From: Klebsiella grimontii
GTDB taxonomy: Bacteria > Pseudomonadota > Gammaproteobacteria > Enterobacterales > Enterobacteriaceae
Length of the DNA: 64,000 bases
NCBI RefSeq assembly: GCF_900200035.1
Contig: NZ_FZTC01000052.1
Coordinates: forward strand, 124,001 to 188,000
Reading direction: 5' to 3'
The notes under the pieces: model-generated
Seen by the model: only the letters and a program-made list of their open reading frames with translations
The model's database searches: none
Told to the model about the DNA's origin: nothing
Part shown: positions 14,480 through 23,678 of the stretch, piece after piece
How positions within the stretch are numbered: the first letter of the stretch is position 1
Layout of the letters: each line of letters opens with the position of its first letter
Translations under genes and position numbers: made by a program

Positions 14480-15493
14480 ATGTCTTCCATTCAACTGTGC
14501 GCCGCACGCCACGCCACCTCAGCTTTCGACGGCGACGCGATCGCCCAGTACATGCGTACCGATTTCATCACCCTGCCGGAACATCTCAGCGTGCATGAAG
14601 CCCGTGAGCTGTTCGTTTCTCAGCTGGCCAGCGATGAGATCCCCGGCCAGGTTTTTGTCGTCGCCGGAAAAAAACTGCGCGGCAGTTTATCGATAAAAAA
14701 GCTGCTGCAGGAGAGCGATACCGCGCAATCCATTCGTTATTTAATGGATAGCTGCCTGTTTCGCGTCAGGCCCGACGATCCGCGCCCGCAGGTAGTCGCC
14801 GAACTCGGCGAGCGCGGGCTCGATCTGGTGCCGGTAGTCGAAAAGGGCGAGCTGGTCGGCTGCCTGATGGAAAAAGAGATTGCGCATCTGCTGGAAGATG
14901 ACGTAACCGAGGATGCTCAGCGCCAGGGGGCGACGCTGCCGCTGGAAAAGCCCTATCTGGAAACCAGCCCGTGGGCGCTATGGAAAAAACGTTCGGTATG
15001 GCTGCTGCTGCTCTTTGTCGCCGAAGCCTACACCAGCAGCGTGTTACAGCATTTTGAAGAGGCGCTGGAATCGGCTATCGCGCTGGCCTTTTTCATTCCA
15101 CTGCTGATTGGTACCGGCGGTAACAGCGGAACGCAGATAACCTCTACGCTTGTGCGTTCGATGGCGCTCGGGGAAGTGCGGCTGCGCGATATGGGACGCG
15201 TGATCCGTAAAGAAGTTTCAACCTCGCTGCTGATCGCCATTACGCTCGGCCTGGCGGGCTGCCTTCGCGCCTGGATGATGGGTATCGGCATGGAGATCAC
15301 CCTGATTGTCAGCCTGACGCTGGTATGCATCACTCTGTGGAGCGCGGTGGTGTCGTCGGTGATCCCCCTGACGCTTAAGCGCCTCGGCATCGACCCGGCT
15401 GTGGTCTCAGCGCCTTTTATCGCCACCCTCATCGACGGTACCGGGTTAATTATCTATTTTAAAATCGCCCAGTATTTTCTCGGGCTGAACTGA
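14480..15493 (+). CDS. mgtE: MgtE-family magnesium transporter, short form
   Basis: A 337-residue Mg2+ channel or transporter. Residues about 20-150 form a CBS-domain pair that in the family senses cytoplasmic Mg2+. A connecting helix leads to a five-helix MgtE domain starting near residue 175, with the pore motif FFIPLLIGTGGNSGTQ around residues 210-225. Typical MgtE proteins have about 450 residues and an extra N-terminal superhelical domain; that domain is absent here. The M-box-like leader upstream indicates control by Mg2+. Confidence 0.93.
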   Translation: MSSIQLCAARHATSAFDGDAIAQYMRTDFITLPEHLSVHEARELFVSQLASDEIPGQVFVVAGKKLRGSLSIKKLLQESDTAQSIRYLMDSCLFRVRPDDPRPQVVAELGERGLDLVPVVEKGELVGCLMEKEIAHLLEDDVTEDAQRQGATLPLEKPYLETSPWALWKKRSVWLLLLFVAEAYTSSVLQHFEEALESAIALAFFIPLLIGTGGNSGTQITSTLVRSMALGEVRLRDMGRVIRKEVSTSLLIAITLGLAGCLRAWMMGIGMEITLIVSLTLVCITLWSAVVSSVIPLTLKRLGIDPAVVSAPFIATLIDGTGLIIYFKIAQYFLGLN

Positions 15494-15791
15494 TTATTTT
15501 GCCCGGCGGTGAAGACTCGCCGGGCCGTTTTATTCCCGCGCGAATATCCGCAATCGCATTGAGTAATCTCAGTAATTCTGGAGCAAGCCGGTAAAAAGCG
15601 TGCCCTTTCTCCGTTAGAGTAACTTTTCTGATATTCCTGCCGCGCGTAATCAGGTTAAAACCCAGTTCATTTTCAAGCGCACATACGCTGGTTGTTATCA
15701 ACGAAGGCACAATACCCAACCGCTGCGATGCAATATGAATACTCCCATCCCGAACCATCAGCATGAATATCTCCACCTGTGATTTATTCAT
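15459..15791 (-). CDS. Stand-alone LysR-type DNA-binding domain protein
   Basis: A 110-residue product whose residues 1-65 are a LysR-type winged helix-turn-helix (SQVEIFMLMVRDGSIHIASQ, then LTEKGHAFYRLAPELLR at the wing and linker helix). The effector-binding domain of about 200 residues is missing. I chose the ATG at 15791 because a strong AGGAGG lies 10 bases upstream. The last 20-25 codons read across the mgtE terminator and into the mgtE 3' end, so the tail may be a by-product of truncation. It is divergent from the 16125-20424 operon with a 333 bp gap. It may be a decayed LysR gene or a working short DNA-binding protein. Confidence 0.65.
   Translation of the reverse strand: MNKSQVEIFMLMVRDGSIHIASQRLGIVPSLITTSVCALENELGFNLITRGRNIRKVTLTEKGHAFYRLAPELLRLLNAIADIRAGIKRPGESSPPGKIISSARENTGRF
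15501..15531 (+). terminator. Rho-independent terminator after mgtE
   Basis: GCCCGGCG (15501-15508) and CGCCGGGC (15518-15525) form a perfect 8 bp GC-rich stem, followed by CGTTTTAT. It starts 8 bp after the mgtE stop. It lies inside the 3' coding part of the small convergent LysR-type gene. Confidence 0.85.
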
Positions 15792-15977
15792 TGCCAAAAT
15801 TCCTCCTGATCAAACCTTTGGTTTACGTTTTAAGTTGTCCGGCACGCAATGTCAATCGGTACAAACGGTCCCTCCGCCATACAAATAAAATAAAGTGTGA
15901 AGCTGACCGAACGTGCATTTAATTATGCATTTCAGCCATTTCATTATTAAATACACGACCTCGAGGCGGTGTCCGAG

Positions 15978-15992
15978 GATGTGAAGGACATC
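15978..15992. promoter_or_regulatory. Candidate upstream activator site (inverted repeat)
   Basis: GATGT-GAAGG-ACATC is a perfect 5 bp inverted repeat. It sits about 82 bp upstream of the sigma-54 promoter, within the usual range for enhancer-binding proteins. The larger context (GGTGTCC ... GGACATCACC) extends the symmetry. Assignment to the activator at 20565-22448 is inferred. Confidence 0.4.
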
Positions 15993-16073
15993 ACCAAAAG
16001 CCAGCGAAGCAAAAAAACAAAATAAGCATATTTATCAGGTAATTATGAAAAAAATCCCGCCTGAATTAATTTA

Positions 16074-16089
16074 TGGCACACGCCATGCA
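16074..16089 (+). promoter_or_regulatory. Sigma-54 promoter of the accessory operon
   Basis: TGGCAC-ACGCC-ATGCA matches the sigma-54 consensus TGGCAC-N5-TTGCA at every position but one, with the invariant GG (16075-16076) and GC (16087-16088) correctly spaced. Transcription would begin near 16100, about 25 bp before the first gene. A sigma-54 activator gene is encoded at the end of the same cluster, which supports the assignment. Confidence 0.85.
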
Positions 16090-16124
16090 ATTACCTCCAC
16101 GTAATCAACACTGGAGATAGTTAA

Positions 16125-17078
16125 ATGACGTACAAAATTTTACTCCCGCAGGAAATTATGGCGGAAGGAAGAGAATATCTGGAAAGCCGCGGTTATCAAC
16201 TGATTAACGGCTCAGGGATGGAAGAAGAAGATATCATTCGCGACATCGGAGATTGCGACGGTATTATCGTACGCCTTTCAAAAATGTCCGATCGCGTATT
16301 TGAGGCGGCTAAAAATCTGAAAGTCGTTGCACGACACGGTGCCGGTTACGATACGGTCGATCTGGAGTCAGCGAAACGTCACGGCGTAGTCGTATTAAAT
16401 GCGCCAATTGCTAATAGCATGTCCGTTGCCGAACTGGCCATATTTTATATGCTGCACTGCTCGCGTAATTTCAAGCTGGTACAGGAAAAGATGCTTGAAG
16501 ATTATTACTGGGCAAAATTGCGCACGCCAAAAGTGGAACTGGATGGTAAAACGCTGGGCCTGATTGGCGTGGGAAATATCGGTTCACGCGTGGCAATCAA
16601 AGCGCTGCATGGCTTTAATATGAAAGTTATCGCCTACGATCCGTATAAAACCCAGCAGCAGATCCCCGAAGGCGTAGAGCTTACCGACGATTTTGACCGT
16701 ATTTTCACAGAGAGCGACTTCGTTTCTCTGCACTGCCCGACGACCGCGGAAACCACCGATTTTGTTGGTGAGAAACAGTTTTCCATGATGAAACCCAGCG
16801 CCTACTTCATTAATACCGCACGCGGAAAGCTGGTTGATGAAAAAGCGCTGTATCACGCCTTGAGCACCCACGCTATCGCCGGAGCGGGCGTGGACGTCTT
16901 AAAGAAAGAGCCGTTTGATGCCAACGATCCGATTTTCTCGCTAAGCAATATCGTGATTGCCCCGCACATTGGCGCCGCCACTATCGAAGCGACCGACAGA
17001 GCCTCGCTCCATTCCGCAATTGGCATTGATGAAGTCTTATCCGGTAAGAAACCGTCCTGGCCGGTCCCGGGTTTTTAA
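16125..17078 (+). CDS. D-2-hydroxyacid dehydrogenase (NAD-dependent, SerA/LdhA-like)
   Basis: A 317-residue cytoplasmic D-isomer-specific 2-hydroxyacid dehydrogenase, expected to interconvert a D-2-hydroxyacid and its 2-oxo acid. The NAD motif is GVGNIGSR (about residue 150). The catalytic Arg is in INTARGKLVDE, the Glu in KKEPFDAND and the His in IAPHIGAAT. It lacks the C-terminal ACT domain of E. coli SerA, so a catabolic role is more likely than serine synthesis. It has a clear GGAG ribosome binding site and is first in an operon with an aldolase-like gene, a transporter and a hydrolase. The exact substrate is unknown. Confidence 0.88.
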   Translation: MTYKILLPQEIMAEGREYLESRGYQLINGSGMEEEDIIRDIGDCDGIIVRLSKMSDRVFEAAKNLKVVARHGAGYDTVDLESAKRHGVVVLNAPIANSMSVAELAIFYMLHCSRNFKLVQEKMLEDYYWAKLRTPKVELDGKTLGLIGVGNIGSRVAIKALHGFNMKVIAYDPYKTQQQIPEGVELTDDFDRIFTESDFVSLHCPTTAETTDFVGEKQFSMMKPSAYFINTARGKLVDEKALYHALSTHAIAGAGVDVLKKEPFDANDPIFSLSNIVIAPHIGAATIEATDRASLHSAIGIDEVLSGKKPSWPVPGF

Positions 17079-17088
17079 GGAGAAAAAC

Positions 17089-17787
17089 ATGACTATTGGT
17101 AACCGTATTTTTTTAAAACGTCCGGCCTGCAGCGTCGATCTTCTTAAAGAATTTGAACAGCTCCCGGCGGCGAATATTGCTGACACCATGAATCGTATTG
17201 CCGTACTGGGTAACGGGATTAAACGTATTTCTTCGCCGAAAAAACCGATTATGGCGGGCTTCGCCATCACCGTAAAAGTTCGCGCGGGCGATAACCTGAT
17301 GCTGCACGCCGCGCTGGATATGGCGGGTGAGAACGATGTGATTGTGGTCTCCAACGAAGGCGACCGTTCGCGAGCGCTGATGGGCGAGATCATGGTGGCC
17401 TACGCCCACTGCATGAAGAAAGTCGCCGGTATCGTGCTGGACGGGCCAATCCGTGACATCGATGCGCTGTCGGTTCTCGATTTTCCGCTGTTCGCCACCG
17501 GCTCCAACCCCGCAGGCCCGTTTAAACAAGGTCCGGGCGAGGTGAACACGCCGATCGCCGTTGGCGGCGTCGCGGTTTGTCCGGGCGACCTGATCGTCGG
17601 CGATGCGGATGGCGTGATTGTTATCCCCCTCGGTGACGCAGAAGCCGTACTAAATAAAGCCAAAGATTATGCAAAATTCGATGCCAGCAAAGTAGAGGCC
17701 GCGAAAAACGGCACCGCGAATCGCCTTTGGGTCAAAAAATCACTGGATGAGACAGGCGTTGAGTTTATCGACGACATGTATCGTTAA
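17089..17787 (+). CDS. RraA-family protein (HMG/CHA aldolase or oxaloacetate decarboxylase-like)
   Basis: A 232-residue member of the RraA / 4-hydroxy-4-methyl-2-oxoglutarate aldolase family. The conserved core is GIVLDGPIRDIDAL (catalytic Arg-Asp), and VGDADGVIVIP is the second signature. Family enzymes cleave 4-hydroxy-2-oxo acids or decarboxylate oxaloacetate; RNase E-inhibitor RraA is a shorter relative. Placement directly after a 2-hydroxyacid dehydrogenase favours an enzyme acting on the 2-oxo acid product. I chose the ATG at 17089 (AAGGAG 7 bases upstream) over an upstream in-frame ATG inside the previous gene. Confidence 0.85.
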   Translation: MTIGNRIFLKRPACSVDLLKEFEQLPAANIADTMNRIAVLGNGIKRISSPKKPIMAGFAITVKVRAGDNLMLHAALDMAGENDVIVVSNEGDRSRALMGEIMVAYAHCMKKVAGIVLDGPIRDIDALSVLDFPLFATGSNPAGPFKQGPGEVNTPIAVGGVAVCPGDLIVGDADGVIVIPLGDAEAVLNKAKDYAKFDASKVEAAKNGTANRLWVKKSLDETGVEFIDDMYR

Positions 17788-17853
17788 TTTGATTAAATAA
17801 TATCAGGCCGCGGTGCCCTGACGGGCCGTGGCTTTAAAGCAAAGGTAATAAAA

Positions 17854-19248
17854 ATGCTTTATTTAAAACTCTTGCCCATTATCTTTTTTCCCGTTTTATT
17901 TTGGATAATACCGCACCCGGAAGGCGTCGCCGCACCGACCTGGCACATGGTTGGCATCTATCTGGCGATGCTGTGCGGACTGGTTTTACGTCCGTTTACC
18001 GATGCGGTCATTATGCTGATTATTCTCGGGTTTGCCTCTCTGGTTCTCGACCCTGCTCCTCTGTTTGCGGGTTTTGGTAGCCCGATGGTCTGGTTTATCA
18101 TCAGCGCCTTTATTATTTGCAAAGCGTTTGTCATTACCGGTCTGGGTAAACGTATCGCCTATCTGTTGCTAAAACGCTACGGTAAAAATACCCTCACCCT
18201 GGGTTATCTGATGATGGTGACGGATACCGTACTGGCCCCGGCAACGGGTTCAAATATGTCCCGTTCCGGAGGCATTACCTATCCCATCTTCAGGAATATC
18301 GCCGAAGCGCTGGGCTCGAAGCCCGACGACGGTAGCCGGAAAATCGGCGCCTATCTGACCATCCTGATGTACGTCGTCTCAATGGGAACCTCCAGCCTGT
18401 TTCTGACGGGGATGGCGACCAACTCAATTACCGTCTCGCTGGCCAACGAGATCATGAAAGTGAATCTCGAATGGATGACCTGGTTTAAAGCCGCCGTGGT
18501 GCCCGCCGGACTGGTGCTGCTGCTCGCGCCGTGGATACTGTATAAAATCTACGCGCCAGAACTGAAAGTTATCGATAACGTCAATGAAATTGCCGAGAAG
18601 GGTCTGCGTGAGCTCGGTCCGGTAAAACGAGAAGAGAAGCTGCTGATCGTATTCTTTATTCTGGGCGTACTCGGCTGGATGACGGGTTCCATCACCGGTA
18701 TCGCCTTTATTCCCGTCGGCCTGGCTTTCCTCGCCTGCCTGCTGCTTTTCGGCGTTCTGAGCTGGAATGACGTGGTGAGCGAAAAATCGGCCTGGCAGAC
18801 CTTCGTCTGGTACGGCGCGTTTTATGGGTGCGCGGTTGCGCTATCAAAAGGCGGGTTCTATGTCTTCCTGGTCGACGTCATCAAAAACTATCTCGACCTG
18901 TCACACCTGAATGAAATCAGCGCGATTGCCGTGCTGGTCTTTATCAGCCTTGCCGTCCGCTATTTCTTTGTCTCTAATAGCGCGTTCGTCGTCTCATTCT
19001 ACCCGGTACTTTTTACCCTGGGAATGACGACTCAGGCGCATCCTATGTACGTGGCGCTATCTCTGGCCTTCTCCGCAGGCTATGGCGCATTGCTTACGCA
19101 TTATGGCAATGGCGCCGGCGTATTTACGTTCTCCAGCGGCTACGTCCCACAAAAAACGTTCTGGATGCTGGGCACCATCATGGTGGTGGTCAACGTATTA
19201 ATCTTTTTCCTGATCGGCATACCCTACTGGAAGTTTATTGGCATTTAA
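17854..19248 (+). CDS. DASS-family anion:sodium symporter
   Basis: A 464-residue, highly hydrophobic membrane protein of the divalent anion:Na+ symporter family (CitT, YbhI and SdcS relatives), with about 12 segments and reentrant loops. The Ser-Asn-Thr-like motif in LAPATGSNMSRSGG and the second half FFVSNSAFVVSFYPV correspond to the two substrate/sodium loops. Such carriers import di- or tricarboxylates and related organic acids. In this operon it probably takes up the pathway substrate. The ATG follows AAAGGTAATAAA. Confidence 0.85.
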   Translation: MLYLKLLPIIFFPVLFWIIPHPEGVAAPTWHMVGIYLAMLCGLVLRPFTDAVIMLIILGFASLVLDPAPLFAGFGSPMVWFIISAFIICKAFVITGLGKRIAYLLLKRYGKNTLTLGYLMMVTDTVLAPATGSNMSRSGGITYPIFRNIAEALGSKPDDGSRKIGAYLTILMYVVSMGTSSLFLTGMATNSITVSLANEIMKVNLEWMTWFKAAVVPAGLVLLLAPWILYKIYAPELKVIDNVNEIAEKGLRELGPVKREEKLLIVFFILGVLGWMTGSITGIAFIPVGLAFLACLLLFGVLSWNDVVSEKSAWQTFVWYGAFYGCAVALSKGGFYVFLVDVIKNYLDLSHLNEISAIAVLVFISLAVRYFFVSNSAFVVSFYPVLFTLGMTTQAHPMYVALSLAFSAGYGALLTHYGNGAGVFTFSSGYVPQKTFWMLGTIMVVVNVLIFFLIGIPYWKFIGI

Positions 19249-19260
19249 CAGGAGCATAAA

Positions 19261-20424
19261 ATGAAACTGGATATTCTGATTAAAAATGGTCTGGTCGCCG
19301 ATCTTGATAGCCGCGATTATATTAATCGCAATATTGGCATCATCGGCGATCGTATCGTTGACTTGAATGCCGTTGATGATTTGCAGGCCGAAACGGTGAT
19401 TGATGCCGCGGGTTGTATCGTGCTGCCTGGCTTAATCGACTTCCATGGCCATGTTTTTCATGGCGGAACCGCCATCAGCGTTAACCCTGATATCGTATGC
19501 TTGCCTAATGGGGTCACCAGTATGGTCGATGCCGGCAGCAGCGGCTGGGTAAATTATCAGCTTTTTCGCAATAGCGTGATTCATCCTGCCATGGTGAAAA
19601 TCAAAAGCTATTTGAACGTGGTCAACGTTGGGCTTTCTACCCTCGGCGGCGGCCCGACCGGTTATCTGGAAAATACCAATCCGGCAAATTACAACGAGGA
19701 GAAGATAGCGCAAACGCTGAATGGCAACAGAGACAATATTCTCGGCTTGAAACTACGCTACAGCCAGGATATCGCCAAAGGGAAACAGTACGCCAGCGAC
19801 CCGCTTCTCTCTACCGTCTCCCTGGCGCGTAAACTCGATACGACGATTTGCGTTCACGTCACGGATTCTCTTCTCTGCGCCGATGAACTGATCCGCTATT
19901 TTAATGCCGATGATATTTATGCGCACTGCTTCCACGGCACCGGCCACTCGATTCTTAATGAACAGGGCGAGGTCTATGCGGCGATAACAGAGGCGCAGTC
20001 CCGGGGTGTTATCTTTGACTGTTCAAACGGCGTGGCCCACTTTGATTTTCACGTTGCCAGAACCGCCATGGAGCAAGGATTTTATCCGGATATCATCAGT
20101 ACCGATCTCACTTTGCGAAATAGCTTACGGACGGATAAGGTTTACAGCCTGCTCCACGTCATGTCGAAATATCTCAACATGGGAATGTCCTTCTTCGATG
20201 TTGTTCGCGCGGTAACCGCTACGCCCGCCCGCCTGATGAAGATGCAGGGGCAAATTGGTACCCTGGCACCCGGCGCTTTTGCTGACGTTTCGATTGTTAA
20301 ACTGCAAAAAGAGAAGATTGTTTTTGAAGATACTCAGGGCGTTAAAATTGAAGGCGACCGTTACATTGATAACTGCGCTACCCTGTGTAATGGTCAAATT
20401 GTCTACCGCCGCCTGCGCTTCTAG
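19261..20424 (+). CDS. Amidohydrolase-superfamily hydrolase (cog3964 type)
   Basis: A 387-residue metal-dependent hydrolase. The HxH metal motif is in GLIDFHGHVFHGG (about residues 59-63), a candidate carboxylated Lys is in GLKLRYSQ, further His ligands are in CVHVTDS and AHCFHGTGHS, and the catalytic Asp is in IISTDLT. It resembles proteins often mislabelled dihydroorotase (EF_0837/Atu3266 type). To my knowledge one such enzyme hydrolyses acetyl-(R)-mandelate, an ester of a D-2-hydroxyacid. The start is 12 bp after the symporter stop, behind AGGAG. A role releasing a D-2-hydroxyacid fits the upstream dehydrogenase. Confidence 0.82.
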   Translation: MKLDILIKNGLVADLDSRDYINRNIGIIGDRIVDLNAVDDLQAETVIDAAGCIVLPGLIDFHGHVFHGGTAISVNPDIVCLPNGVTSMVDAGSSGWVNYQLFRNSVIHPAMVKIKSYLNVVNVGLSTLGGGPTGYLENTNPANYNEEKIAQTLNGNRDNILGLKLRYSQDIAKGKQYASDPLLSTVSLARKLDTTICVHVTDSLLCADELIRYFNADDIYAHCFHGTGHSILNEQGEVYAAITEAQSRGVIFDCSNGVAHFDFHVARTAMEQGFYPDIISTDLTLRNSLRTDKVYSLLHVMSKYLNMGMSFFDVVRAVTATPARLMKMQGQIGTLAPGAFADVSIVKLQKEKIVFEDTQGVKIEGDRYIDNCATLCNGQIVYRRLRF

Positions 20425-20436
20425 TCGCTAATTATT

Positions 20437-20470
20437 AAGCCTTACGCCTACATCGGCGTAAGGCTTTTAT
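20437..20470 (+). terminator. Rho-independent terminator of the accessory operon
   Basis: AAGCCTTACGCC and GGCGTAAGGCTT form a perfect 12 bp stem around a TACATC loop, followed by TTAT. It separates the four-gene operon from the downstream regulator gene, which therefore has its own promoter. Confidence 0.92.
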
Positions 20471-20564
20471 TCTGAATCACGCATAATCTGACTTCCCTCA
20501 TTGATTCTCCTCGCTCTCATCATATACTAAGACTTGCCTACCCTGATGTCTGCGAGAATAATGC

Positions 20565-22448
20565 ATGAATAATAATGAAATTGTTATCTTTTCAGTTTCC
20601 AGGACAATAACCCAACGAATTATGAATGTCCTTATTGAAAGGAAACTCGATATCCCCGTGTTTGAATTTCGTTATTCAGATGTTCTCGATAAAGCCCATG
20701 AGATGATTCAATCCGGCACTAAGATAATTATTAGCCGGGGCGGTACCGCCGCACTTTTGCGTAGCAACATTACTATCCCTGTCATTGAAATCGCCCATGA
20801 TTTCCATGGCGTTTATCGCATCTTACAGGAAGCCAACAGCAAATCGCAAAAAATTGCCGCCGTTGGTTTCCCGCAGTTTTGTAGCGCCTTACGCCATTAC
20901 CAAAACATGACTAATGAAGAGTTTAAAATTTGCCAGGTTTACAACCATCACGATATTGAAAATGTTATAAAAAATCTTTCGGAGAATAATTATCATACCG
21001 TAATCGGCGGGCTGACCGTTGCTGAAATGGCGCAAAAATATCACCTCAATGCTATTATGGGTGATACCGATAATATTTCCATCGAGCAGGCCATCAATGA
21101 AGCTCACAGTTTATTGAAATACATTAATCGAGAACACAGCAAACTGATCATGAGCCACTCAGCATTGAATCAGGCGCGTGAAGGTATTATGTGCATCGAT
21201 CAGCTTGGTGAAATTATCAATATCAACGCCACCGGCGTGGCATTATTCCAATGTCAAGCTGGAGATAAAATATTCAAAAAAGAAGCTTTTAAAGAGATCT
21301 ACGCCAGCATTATTAATGAATTAGACATCAAAGAGCAGGCTATAGACATCAACGGCGTAACGATTCATATTTCCGTGCGCCACTTTTCTAACCGAAAAAT
21401 ATCTTATGCCGTTATTACGGGGTTAAGCCAGGAGAGTACGCTTTGGCAAAACAGCGTCAACAAAAAAAGTAAGCTCCGCGGTTTTTCCACCACCTGGTCT
21501 TTCGATGATATTATTGGTCAGTCTCCAGCAATACTCGATGTCATAAAAAAAGCCAAACTGTGCGCCCGCCATGAACTTCCCATCCATATTTTGGGCGATA
21601 CCGGCACGGGCAAAGAGCTTTTCGCCCAGAGTATTCATAACCATAGCGCCAGAAGCCATAGCCCTTTTATCGCGATTAACTGCGCGGCCATCCCTGAGGG
21701 TATTCTGGAAAGCGAACTCTTTGGCTATGCCGACGGCGCATTTACCAGCGCGCGTAAGGGCGGAAAACCGGGGGTGTTTGAAATGGCGATGAACGGCACG
21801 GTGTTTATCGATGAAATCAGCGAAGCGCCGCTATCGGTACAGGTCAAACTACTGCGCGTATTGCAGGAGAAGCAGTTTTCTCGTCTCGGCGGCGATACGC
21901 TTATTACCGCCGATTTTCGCCTGATCACCGCCAGCAATAAGGATCTACGCCCGCTCGTCGCCAGCGGTGAGTTCAGGCAGGATCTGTACTATCGAATCAA
22001 TATTCTTGAGTTGAGTCTACCGGCCTTATGCCAGCGACCGGGCGATATCATGCCGTTGATTCAGCACCTGCTTCATCAACAGGGTAAGCAAATCACCTTT
22101 ACCCCCGATGCGGTGGATTTTTTGCATCGTTATCGCTGGCCTGGCAACATTCGTGAACTCCAGGCGGTGATCTACCGACTCATCGTCCTGGTGGATATTG
22201 ATCGAGTGAGCAAAGAGATTTTGCTGCAGGTCAGTCAAATATCGCCGGATGACGACAATGAGGGCTCTCACCTCCCGGCCACGGGCGTGACATCAGATGA
22301 AACCGATTTATTAAAGAAACAAGAGAAACGGCTGATTACCCATGTCATAGAAAAAACCGACGGGGACAGGACCAAAGCCTCGGTGATGCTCGGCATCAGC
22401 CCCACGACCCTATGGCGCAAATTAAAGCAGCACAATATCAGCGGATAA
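20565..22448 (+). CDS. Sigma-54-dependent activator with PrpR-type sensor domain
   Basis: A 627-residue enhancer-binding protein. Residues about 1-190 resemble the PrpR N-terminal ligand domain (ISRGGTAALLRSNITIPVIEI); 195-290 is a PAS-like segment. The AAA+ domain (about 320-550) has Walker A GDTGTGKE and the sigma-54 contact loop written GAFTSA instead of GAFTGA. The C-terminus is a Fis-type helix-turn-helix (TKASVMLGISPTTLWRKLKQ). It presumably senses a pathway organic acid and activates the sigma-54 promoter at 16074-16089. Confidence 0.92.
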   Translation: MNNNEIVIFSVSRTITQRIMNVLIERKLDIPVFEFRYSDVLDKAHEMIQSGTKIIISRGGTAALLRSNITIPVIEIAHDFHGVYRILQEANSKSQKIAAVGFPQFCSALRHYQNMTNEEFKICQVYNHHDIENVIKNLSENNYHTVIGGLTVAEMAQKYHLNAIMGDTDNISIEQAINEAHSLLKYINREHSKLIMSHSALNQAREGIMCIDQLGEIININATGVALFQCQAGDKIFKKEAFKEIYASIINELDIKEQAIDINGVTIHISVRHFSNRKISYAVITGLSQESTLWQNSVNKKSKLRGFSTTWSFDDIIGQSPAILDVIKKAKLCARHELPIHILGDTGTGKELFAQSIHNHSARSHSPFIAINCAAIPEGILESELFGYADGAFTSARKGGKPGVFEMAMNGTVFIDEISEAPLSVQVKLLRVLQEKQFSRLGGDTLITADFRLITASNKDLRPLVASGEFRQDLYYRINILELSLPALCQRPGDIMPLIQHLLHQQGKQITFTPDAVDFLHRYRWPGNIRELQAVIYRLIVLVDIDRVSKEILLQVSQISPDDDNEGSHLPATGVTSDETDLLKKQEKRLITHVIEKTDGDRTKASVMLGISPTTLWRKLKQHNISG

Positions 22449-22481: not shown

Positions 22482-23678
22482 TTATTTCTGTTCCGCTAAA
22501 GCCTGCGCGCAAGCCCAGGCTGATGCCCACGCCCACTGGAAGTTATAGCCGCCCAGCCAGCCGGTAACGTCCATCACTTCGCCGATAAAGTACAGACCGG
22601 GCACCCCGCGGGCTTCCATGGTGCGCGAAGAGAGCTCATTCGTATCGACGCCGCCGAGGGTTACCTCCGCCGTGCGATAGCCTTCGGTGCCATTCGGCTG
22701 GACGCGCCATGCGGTCAACGTCTCCACCAGCGCCTGCTGCTCACGAACGTTAAGCTGTTTCAGGGTGACATCCGGAAGCTGGCCCAGCTGCTGTAAGCAC
22801 TCAACCAGCCGCTTCGGCAGCTGCATCGCGAGGGTGTTTTTCAGGCTTTGATTGGGATGCGCCGCGCGCTGCTCGTCGAGGAAGTCATCAAGATGGCAAT
22901 CCGGCAGCAGATTGATGCTGACGAATTCTCCCGGCTGCCAGTAGCTGGAAATTTGCAATACCGCCGGTCCGGACAGCCCACGGTGGGTAAAGAGCAGATT
23001 TTCCCGGAAGACGGTACCGTTTTCCGCCGTGATGGTCGACGGTACCGACACCCCGGAAAGCACCTGCAGCTGTTCAAGCAGCGGCTTATGTAAGGTAAAC
23101 GGCACCAGGCCCGCTCGGGTCGGCAGCACCTTCAGGCCAAACTGCTCGGCAAGCTTATAGCCGAACGGCGAAGCGCCCAGACCGGGCATGGATAACCCGC
23201 CGGAGGCGACCACCAGCTTTTTCGCCGCCACCGTCTCGCCGTTAAGCTGCAGCGTGTAGCCCTCATCATCCCGCTCAACGCTGATAATTTCGCTGCGCAG
23301 GCGAATTTCAACGCCGCCTTTTTCACACTCGGCCAGCAGCAGGTTAACGATTTGCTCGGCGGAATCATCGCAGAAAAGCTGGCCCAGGGTTTTCTCATGC
23401 CAGGCAATACCGTATTTGCCCACCAGATCGATAAAGTCCCACTGGGTGTAGCGCGCCAGCGCAGATTTGCAAAAATGCGGGTTTTGACTGAGATATGCCG
23501 CGGGTTCGATATACATGTTAGTAAAGTTGCAACGGCCACCGCCAGACATCAGGATTTTACGCCCGGGCTTTTTGCCGTTATCGAGTAACAGCACCCGGCA
23601 ACCTGCCTGCCCCGCCTGCGCCGCACAAAACATTCCCGCCGCTCCGGCGCCGATTACGATGGCATCAAACCTTTCCAC
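22482..23678 (-). CDS. yhiN: YhiN, HI0933-family flavoprotein
   Basis: A 398-residue FAD-binding protein of the HI0933/YhiN family; the biochemical role in E. coli is not established. The N-terminal dinucleotide motif is IGAGAAGMFCAAQAG. The KPGRKILMSGGGRCNFTN segment is characteristic of the family, and the C-terminal GWLGGYNFQWAWASAW closes the FAD site. Its place beside pitA matches E. coli. Confidence 0.93.
   Translation of the reverse strand: MERFDAIVIGAGAAGMFCAAQAGQAGCRVLLLDNGKKPGRKILMSGGGRCNFTNMYIEPAAYLSQNPHFCKSALARYTQWDFIDLVGKYGIAWHEKTLGQLFCDDSAEQIVNLLLAECEKGGVEIRLRSEIISVERDDEGYTLQLNGETVAAKKLVVASGGLSMPGLGASPFGYKLAEQFGLKVLPTRAGLVPFTLHKPLLEQLQVLSGVSVPSTITAENGTVFRENLLFTHRGLSGPAVLQISSYWQPGEFVSINLLPDCHLDDFLDEQRAAHPNQSLKNTLAMQLPKRLVECLQQLGQLPDVTLKQLNVREQQALVETLTAWRVQPNGTEGYRTAEVTLGGVDTNELSSRTMEARGVPGLYFIGEVMDVTGWLGGYNFQWAWASAWACAQALAEQK

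Follow-up and report, generated by a model that had tools for sequence, protein, structure and literature searches.

Parts of the gene system analyzed here have described counterparts. For the HMG/CHA aldolase (Protein Data Bank (PDB) entry 3NOJ), an RraA-fold lyase, PMC5065237 gives roles for R123, D124, E199 and R195, with R123 and D124 as the catalytic and metal pair. For transporters of the DASS family, PMC7553777 places LaINDY in the exchanger clade and describes Arg159 and His392, both conserved among exchangers, as surrogates for sodium; the authors' reply to reviewers in the same source adds that exchange by LaINDY is not certain. The locus studied here, from Klebsiella grimontii, combines members of these families in a single operon. 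The window, i.e. the whole stretch of 64,000 nucleotides that was analyzed, spans positions 124001-188000 of its contig (NZ_FZTC01000052.1) within a genome of 6.17 Mb. The operon (16125-20424) consists of four genes, for a D-2-hydroxyacid dehydrogenase (HADH), an RraA-family lyase, a transporter of the DASS family and an amidohydrolase of the cog3964 type (AMH), and is followed by a terminator and then by the gene for a sigma-54 activator (Table 1). We propose, with a probability of roughly 0.5, that this operon serves the catabolism of a masked D-2-hydroxy (di)carboxylic acid, as what looks like a dedicated and tightly controlled pathway providing import, hydrolysis, oxidation, carbon-carbon cleavage and regulation. 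Its gene content, co-inheritance, kept catalytic residues and promoter elements support this reading.

The five genes were compared across 17 loci chosen by similarity of the AMH, so that the presence of this gene is by construction, whereas that of the other four is not. Besides the window the set comprises Klebsiella oxytoca, Klebsiella michiganensis, a further Klebsiella (L093), Citrobacter sedlakii, Intestinirhabdus alba, Kosakonia, two Phytobacter, Mixta, Pectobacterium fontis, three Pantoea, Leminorella grimontii, a second member of that genus (L085) and Candidatus Symbiopectobacterium. At all 17 loci the five genes occur in the same order, the AMH is 67.7-100% identical and the activator gene is syntenic with the operon. 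Three weak AMH matches were left out; one of these (L035, 41%) has no HADH, RraA or DASS match, and the other two (L036 and L037, both partial) have no match for any operon protein. An independent test of co-occurrence took the DASS protein as its starting point, and at E<=1e-130 it matched in 10 of 295 genomes of the family. Nine of these (88-100% identity) also have the AMH at 68-100%; the tenth, G146, has a DASS of 48% and an AMH relative of only 31% elsewhere in the genome. Conversely, the AMH was found at E<=1e-60 in 12 of the 295 genomes, but in three of these the AMH copies reach just 42-44% identity and DASS is absent at E<=1e-130. Co-occurrence of the five genes across genomes had been named beforehand as a check on the original prediction, and the fixed order at the 17 loci and the AMH in 9/9 genomes with a DASS ortholog both bear it out.

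The five-gene set is patchily distributed in Klebsiella and other enteric bacteria. An AMH ortholog (92-100%) is present in four of 20 Klebsiella genomes, host included. In Pantoea, four plasmids of 157-528 kb carry AMH, RraA and DASS orthologs, and the two of them examined in detail have all five genes. Close HADH relatives are absent at E<=1e-75 from 368 other genomes of the class, and 16125-20424 has no megablast match among 20,395 Escherichia coli records. The ratio of nonsynonymous to synonymous substitution rates (dN/dS) of the five genes, from comparisons of the window with five loci, is 0.00-0.07 in 21 of 25 cases, many of them with dS above 1; dS is saturated in the other four. HADH and DASS are the most conserved of the five proteins, with 233/317 and 357/464 positions invariant across the loci, as against 153/232 in RraA, 188/387 in AMH and 227/627 in the activator. 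As a separate observation, a distant AMH paralog (31-33%) is present in all 20 Klebsiella genomes, the host's own cog3964 copy (32%) being at G000:C34:98462-99481.

The spacing of the genes is likewise similar across the 17 loci, with gaps of 2-11 bp between HADH and RraA, 62-87 bp between RraA and DASS and 10-17 bp between DASS and AMH (12 bp in the window). The RraA start was taken as an internal ATG at 17089, the list of open reading frames (ORFs) showing a longer TTG frame from 16957. A stem-loop lies within the first 75 bases after AMH at all 17 loci, a count made without a shuffled control, and a few of these lack a clear T run. The original prediction had named the five protein families and a strong terminator after the operon; ORFs and profile matches confirm the former, and the stem and T-rich tail listed in Table 1 the latter.

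The AMH scores 597.5 bits against the NF009060/PRK12394 model, above its cut-off of 442, and is 87.1% identical to PDB 8je0_A, deposited as 'Amidase'; 2OGJ, 8WZY and 2ICS are more distant solved relatives. Its His62, His64, Lys164, His199, His222 and Asp282, aligned with 2OGJ and presumably the metal ligands, are invariant at all 17 loci. HADH is nearest to PGDH models, yet falls below their cut-offs; Arg233, Glu262 and His281, which form the catalytic triad of such dehydrogenases, and Asp172 of the NAD motif are again invariant in 17/17. RraA lies just above the cut-off of NF004850/PRK06201 (239.6 bits vs 231) and well short of those of the HMG/CHA aldolase models (TIGR02798, 110.7 vs 304.5 bits; NF006731, 127.2 vs 179 bits). 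Relative to 3NOJ it keeps R40, N71, R123, D124 and K147 as R36, N69, R122, D123 and K146, and has Asp198 for E199; these residues, and the substituted Tyr194 and Pro144, are invariant in 17/17 loci. The DASS protein was placed by matches to solved structures rather than by a tree: at E<=10 its only solved relatives are DiT1, DiT2.1 and two constructs of LaINDY, a fifth match (E=1.1) being a ribosomal protein. We take DiT1 and DiT2.1 to be members of the exchanger clade, and LaINDY Arg159, the surrogate at the first sodium site, is kept as R137. The carrier had been called a symporter in the original prediction; this part did not hold, as it resembles the exchanger clade and not the sodium symporters.

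Promoter elements were sought by aligning the upstream regions of the 17 loci and counting matches against shuffled sequences; as these regions are otherwise poorly alignable, shared blocks within them are informative. The sigma-54 site in the window (at 16074) has one mismatch, and taken by itself it lacks significance, the window having 51 matches at up to two mismatches where 80 are expected. A single motif match was hence dropped as evidence and conservation across loci used instead. TGGCAY-N6-TGC occurs 48-61 bases before the HADH start codon in 17/17 loci (shuffled mean 0.07, maximum 2). The CRP-like box is exact in 14 of the loci and has at most one mismatch in all of them (shuffled means 0.035 and 0.8, respectively). 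With both elements conserved throughout, the evidence for the sigma-54 promoter noted in the original prediction is now stronger than at first sight. The IHF-like site is plausible, yet not above chance, since shuffles give one somewhere in 9.9 of 17 loci. Further upstream, the palindrome TTTCANNNTGAAA is found within two mismatches at all 17 loci (shuffled mean 6.4, maximum 12), and two copies exactly 21 bp apart, each with at most two mismatches, at seven (L027, L029, L032, L033, L034, L085 and L093). In the window the second palindrome passes and the first is imperfect, with more than two mismatches; a degenerate pattern for the pair, designed so that the site in the window is covered, matches only there in the host genome with at most one mismatch, and its reversed control gives 0. 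The predicted layout would comprise activator sites, CRP, perhaps IHF, and sigma-54.

The activator scores 355 bits against the PrpR equivalog model TIGR02329 (cut-off 499), and by its domains it is a PrpR_N/AAA+/HTH_8 protein, not PrpR itself. Its GAFTGA loop reads GAFTSA at five loci, GAFTNA at seven, GAFTHA at two, and GAFTDA, GAFTGT and GAFTGA at one each. The fifth residue of this loop is thus variable (S, N, H, D or G), and the full canonical form is seen at only one of the 17. A second candidate regulator is the divergent 112-residue LysR-type ORF, which lay within the interval of the original prediction, beginning at 15459, and was unmentioned in its finding. It has HTH_1 only, with no effector domain, and a short ORF of this kind (90-112 aa) occurs at the same place in seven of the 17 loci. 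The five of these that were domain-scanned all have HTH_1, that of L093 with an additional sub-threshold plasmid-stability match. The dN/dS of the short ORF is 0.08-0.29 in five of six pairs (the sixth is saturated) and 0.18-0.29 within Klebsiella, where it is under moderate constraint. These values and the similar length across genera disfavor a decayed fragment, and make a genuine DNA-binding protein that stands alone more likely than a broken gene; alternatively, it may be a truncated regulator kept for its domain. Because the palindromes also occur at the 10 loci in which tblastn detects no short LysR ORF, we tentatively assign these candidate sites to the PrpR_N activator, and their interpretation as LysR sites was set aside as the main reading.

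Table 1. Features of the operon, its promoter region and its regulators; positions refer to the window unless a locus is given
Feature	Position	Strand	Family or remark
Two palindrome-like activator-type sites, TTTAATTATGCAT ... TTTCATTATTAAA	15918-15951	.	start to start 21 bp
CRP-like site GTGA-N6-TCAC	15981-15994	.	at -142 to -162 from start codon across loci
IHF-like site, weak	16033-16045	+	<=1 mismatch near -90 to -102 in most loci
sigma-54 -24/-12 promoter TGGCACACGCCATGC	16074-16088	+	kept in 17/17 loci
D-2-hydroxyacid dehydrogenase (HADH), PGDH-like, NAD-type Asp172	16125-17078	+	PF02826/PF00389
RraA-family class II aldolase/decarboxylase, PRK06201 subfamily	17089-17787	+	PF03737, NF004850
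DASS transporter, exchanger-clade type	17854-19248	+	PF00939/TIGR00785, TIGR00785 above cut-off
cog3964-type metal-dependent amidohydrolase (AMH), PRK12394	19261-20424	+	NF009060
Intrinsic terminator closing the four-gene operon	20437-20466	+	12-bp stem, T-rich tail
PrpR_N / AAA+ sigma-54 activator / Fis-type HTH	20565-22448	+	PF06506, PF00158 (Sigma54_activat), PF02954 (HTH_8)
Stand-alone LysR-type DNA-binding domain, 112 aa	15459-15797	-	PF00126 E=6.5e-11; divergent from operon
Short LysR-type ORF	L023:5199-5531
Short LysR-type ORF	L024:5199-5531
Short LysR-type ORF	L093:4344-4622
Short LysR-type ORF	L027:5233-5508
Short LysR-type ORF	L028:5229-5528
Short LysR-type ORF	L029:5235-5507

Taken together, these elements suggest a pathway in which the individual reactions, their order, the pairing of regulator and sites and the chemical class of the substrate are what we infer. 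The PrpR_N activator would occupy both palindromes, probably once the substrate or an intermediate is bound to it, and open the sigma-54 promoter together with cAMP-CRP and perhaps IHF. An organic anion would enter through the DASS carrier, probably against a dicarboxylate from inside the cell, after which the metal-dependent AMH might hydrolyze an amide (or acyl ester) group to release the free D-2-hydroxyacid. HADH would oxidize this to a 2-oxo acid with NAD+, and the RraA-type class II lyase would convert the latter, by aldol cleavage or decarboxylation, to pyruvate-level products.

Related gene sets elsewhere bear on this scheme. In G146, the stretch L080 (7308-11123) codes for an HD-domain protein, RraA (51%), DASS (48%), HADH (52%) and a LysR protein, without an AMH, and lies near two integrase-like ORFs (judged by eye); the AMH therefore looks like a detachable front step. 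In G236, L081 (8656-14443) has on one strand an Fe-ADH, a DHDPS-family lyase in the place of RraA, HADH (35%), an MFS carrier closest to a galactonate model, though scoring under the cut-off of that model, and AMH (44%). On its own, this run might represent a parallel pathway for a sugar-acid-like derivative. Both sets fit hydrolysis followed by oxidation and then carbon-carbon cleavage, so that the predicted order, with import at its head, is plausible. RraA relatives were also surveyed on plasmids, where six annotated regions were examined of 40 listed (264 records in all). An HADH homolog stands beside RraA in five of the six, the exception (L040) having a DUF1932 protein instead, and a tripartite tricarboxylate transporter is present in four. 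Three regions from Alphaproteobacteria (L039, L041 and L042) combine HADH (36-40%), RraA (43-46%), a tripartite tricarboxylate transporter and a divergent LysR gene. Judging from this gene company, the simplest reading is a core of HADH, a carbon-carbon lyase and an anion carrier, for which the AMH would unmask the hydroxyacid.

Several points weigh against the proposed pathway. Its chemistry is plausible, with the substrate and the enzyme activities predicted from sequence. RraA has Tyr194 and Pro144 in place of 3NOJ R195 and T145, so its substrate need not be HMG-like, and HADH could run in the reducing direction. Exchange by DASS is deduced from relatedness alone, and at the positions of LaINDY His392 (the surrogate at the second sodium site) and His401 it has Arg369, which keeps the charge and not the residue, and Phe378. 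As both replacements are invariant in 17/17 loci, its binding site would appear to be its own. The palindrome count is only moderately above that of shuffled sequences and is, by itself, suggestive. Lastly, HADH and RraA are missing from the neighborhood of most distant AMH relatives: among 20 stretches surveyed from 46 places listed, one of them the host's own paralog, an RraA homolog was found in two (L134 and L136) and HADH or DASS in none at E<=1e-8. The AMH alone does not, therefore, predict the pathway. Four plasmid stretches with an AMH, from Alphaproteobacteria or Thermomicrobium, were also examined; in two the AMH is accompanied by genes for an ABC carrier, by RidA and by an aminotransferase of class V, and the other two have different neighbors.

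The nature of the mask is where the proposal is most closely rivaled. The original prediction had an acylated substrate, and the same route acting on an O-acyl (ester) or N-acyl derivative of a D-hydroxy or D-amino acid is a real possibility, although we consider it considerably less probable than the general scheme. The AMH aligns to 2OGJ (Atu3266) at E=4.5e-44 with the metal-ligand positions kept, and we take this group to cleave O-acetyl hydroxyacids, an activity that leaves an ester substrate possible. The much closer solved relative (8JE0, 87%) is named amidase, which makes a hydroxy-acid amide at least as likely as an acyl ester; this name is the depositor's label, and no openly licensed paper naming the entry was found. 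A D-amino acid product, moreover, is not an expected substrate of HADH. Acylation is hence no longer favored over amidation, the acyl ester surviving as the second option: the predicted AMH substrate is an amide or an ester, the amide being slightly preferred. Our guess at the class, an amide of an (R)-2-hydroxy dicarboxylate, follows the nearest named relative of the AMH. An unlikely variant would place RraA first, acting on an imported 4-hydroxy-2-oxo (di)acid, with HADH working reductively to recycle NADH and the AMH as an accessory that widens the substrate range. The relationship of this PRK06201-type protein to the HMG/CHA aldolase, with R122 and D123 kept, is compatible with it, as is the L080 set without AMH, and the exchangers CitT and TtdT serve fermentations. 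Both stand in the transporter family of DASS in a figure legend of PMC7553777. The placement of AMH next to HADH with another lyase in L081, and its retention in all nine family genomes with an orthologous DASS, speak against this variant. The same co-occurrence, along with the fixed gene order across genera and the tight DASS-AMH spacing, makes it very improbable that the AMH is a promiscuous detoxifying or nitrogen-scavenging amidase only loosely linked to a hydroxyacid pathway formed by the other genes. In favor of that reading, AMH relatives of 40-41% on a Salmonella plasmid (neighbors judged from annotation) and in two family genomes are accompanied by an MFS carrier, with neither HADH nor RraA matched nearby.

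In the window the operon lies between two convergent genes that we take to be mgtE (14480-15493) and a yhiN-like gene (22482-23678, minus strand), and its G+C content is 49.4%, with 59.0% in the left flank and 54.7% in the right one. The proteins it encodes share 95-100% identity with their counterparts in K. oxytoca NBRC 105695 and 90-99% with those in K. michiganensis. Among 12 stretches from the 19 other genomes of the genus searched, three carry the operon, and the distance between the mgtE and yhiN matches is 44-90 bp in six and 1.6 kb in one; no mgtE match stands beside yhiN in three (L092, L094 and L093), of which L093 carries the operon there. Four host neighbor genes were further sought at 14 of the loci: in the two named Klebsiella, in Citrobacter sedlakii and in Intestinirhabdus the operon has yhiN and pitA next to it, nikR is located upstream at five loci (the two Klebsiella, Intestinirhabdus, Kosakonia and P. 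diazotrophicus), and none of the four is found at eight. This pattern suggests that the distribution may reflect in part old inheritance at one place with loss and in part transfer, and mobility of the operon is likely.

In its most specific form the proposal is tentative, and we would bet against its holding in every detail: an undescribed catabolic route for (R)-2-hydroxy dicarboxylic acid amides, exchanged patchily among Enterobacterales (on plasmids in Pantoea), with a divergent DASS exchanger and joint control by CRP, the PrpR_N activator and, in certain lineages, a LysR DNA-binding domain that stands alone and has no effector domain. In agreement with the original prediction, neither a described pathway with this exact gene set nor a homologous operon already assigned to a named pathway was found in the openly licensed papers searched; the pathway is novel as one built of known kinds of enzymes that has no assigned role in those papers. 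Five genes of scattered enteric genomes known by family name only would thereby become one testable pathway, with a built-in reporter in the sigma-54 promoter whose paired site is found once in the host genome. The RraA family would gain another likely metabolic role, and 8JE0, a solved enzyme named only 'amidase', a probable natural setting through its close relatives.

Set beside the known systems, the locus is like the prp operon in having a PrpR_N, AAA+ and HTH_8 activator beside a sigma-54 promoter, and unlike it in having no prpBCDE genes and in the activator's GAFTSA for GAFTGA. In contrast to the context of the HMG/CHA aldolase, there is no aromatic-cleavage gene in the operon. The alphaproteobacterial HADH-RraA sets differ from it in lacking an AMH, in their transporter and in their full-length LysR protein, and no sigma-54 activator is annotated in the stretch covered. 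Finally, the cog3964 amidohydrolases 8JE0, 2OGJ (Atu3266) and 2ICS (EF_0837), for which no physiological role was found in the openly licensed papers searched, share the metal-ligand positions and length of the AMH, whereas the genes that accompany it in the operon are unlike those found next to other relatives in five annotated plasmid stretches.

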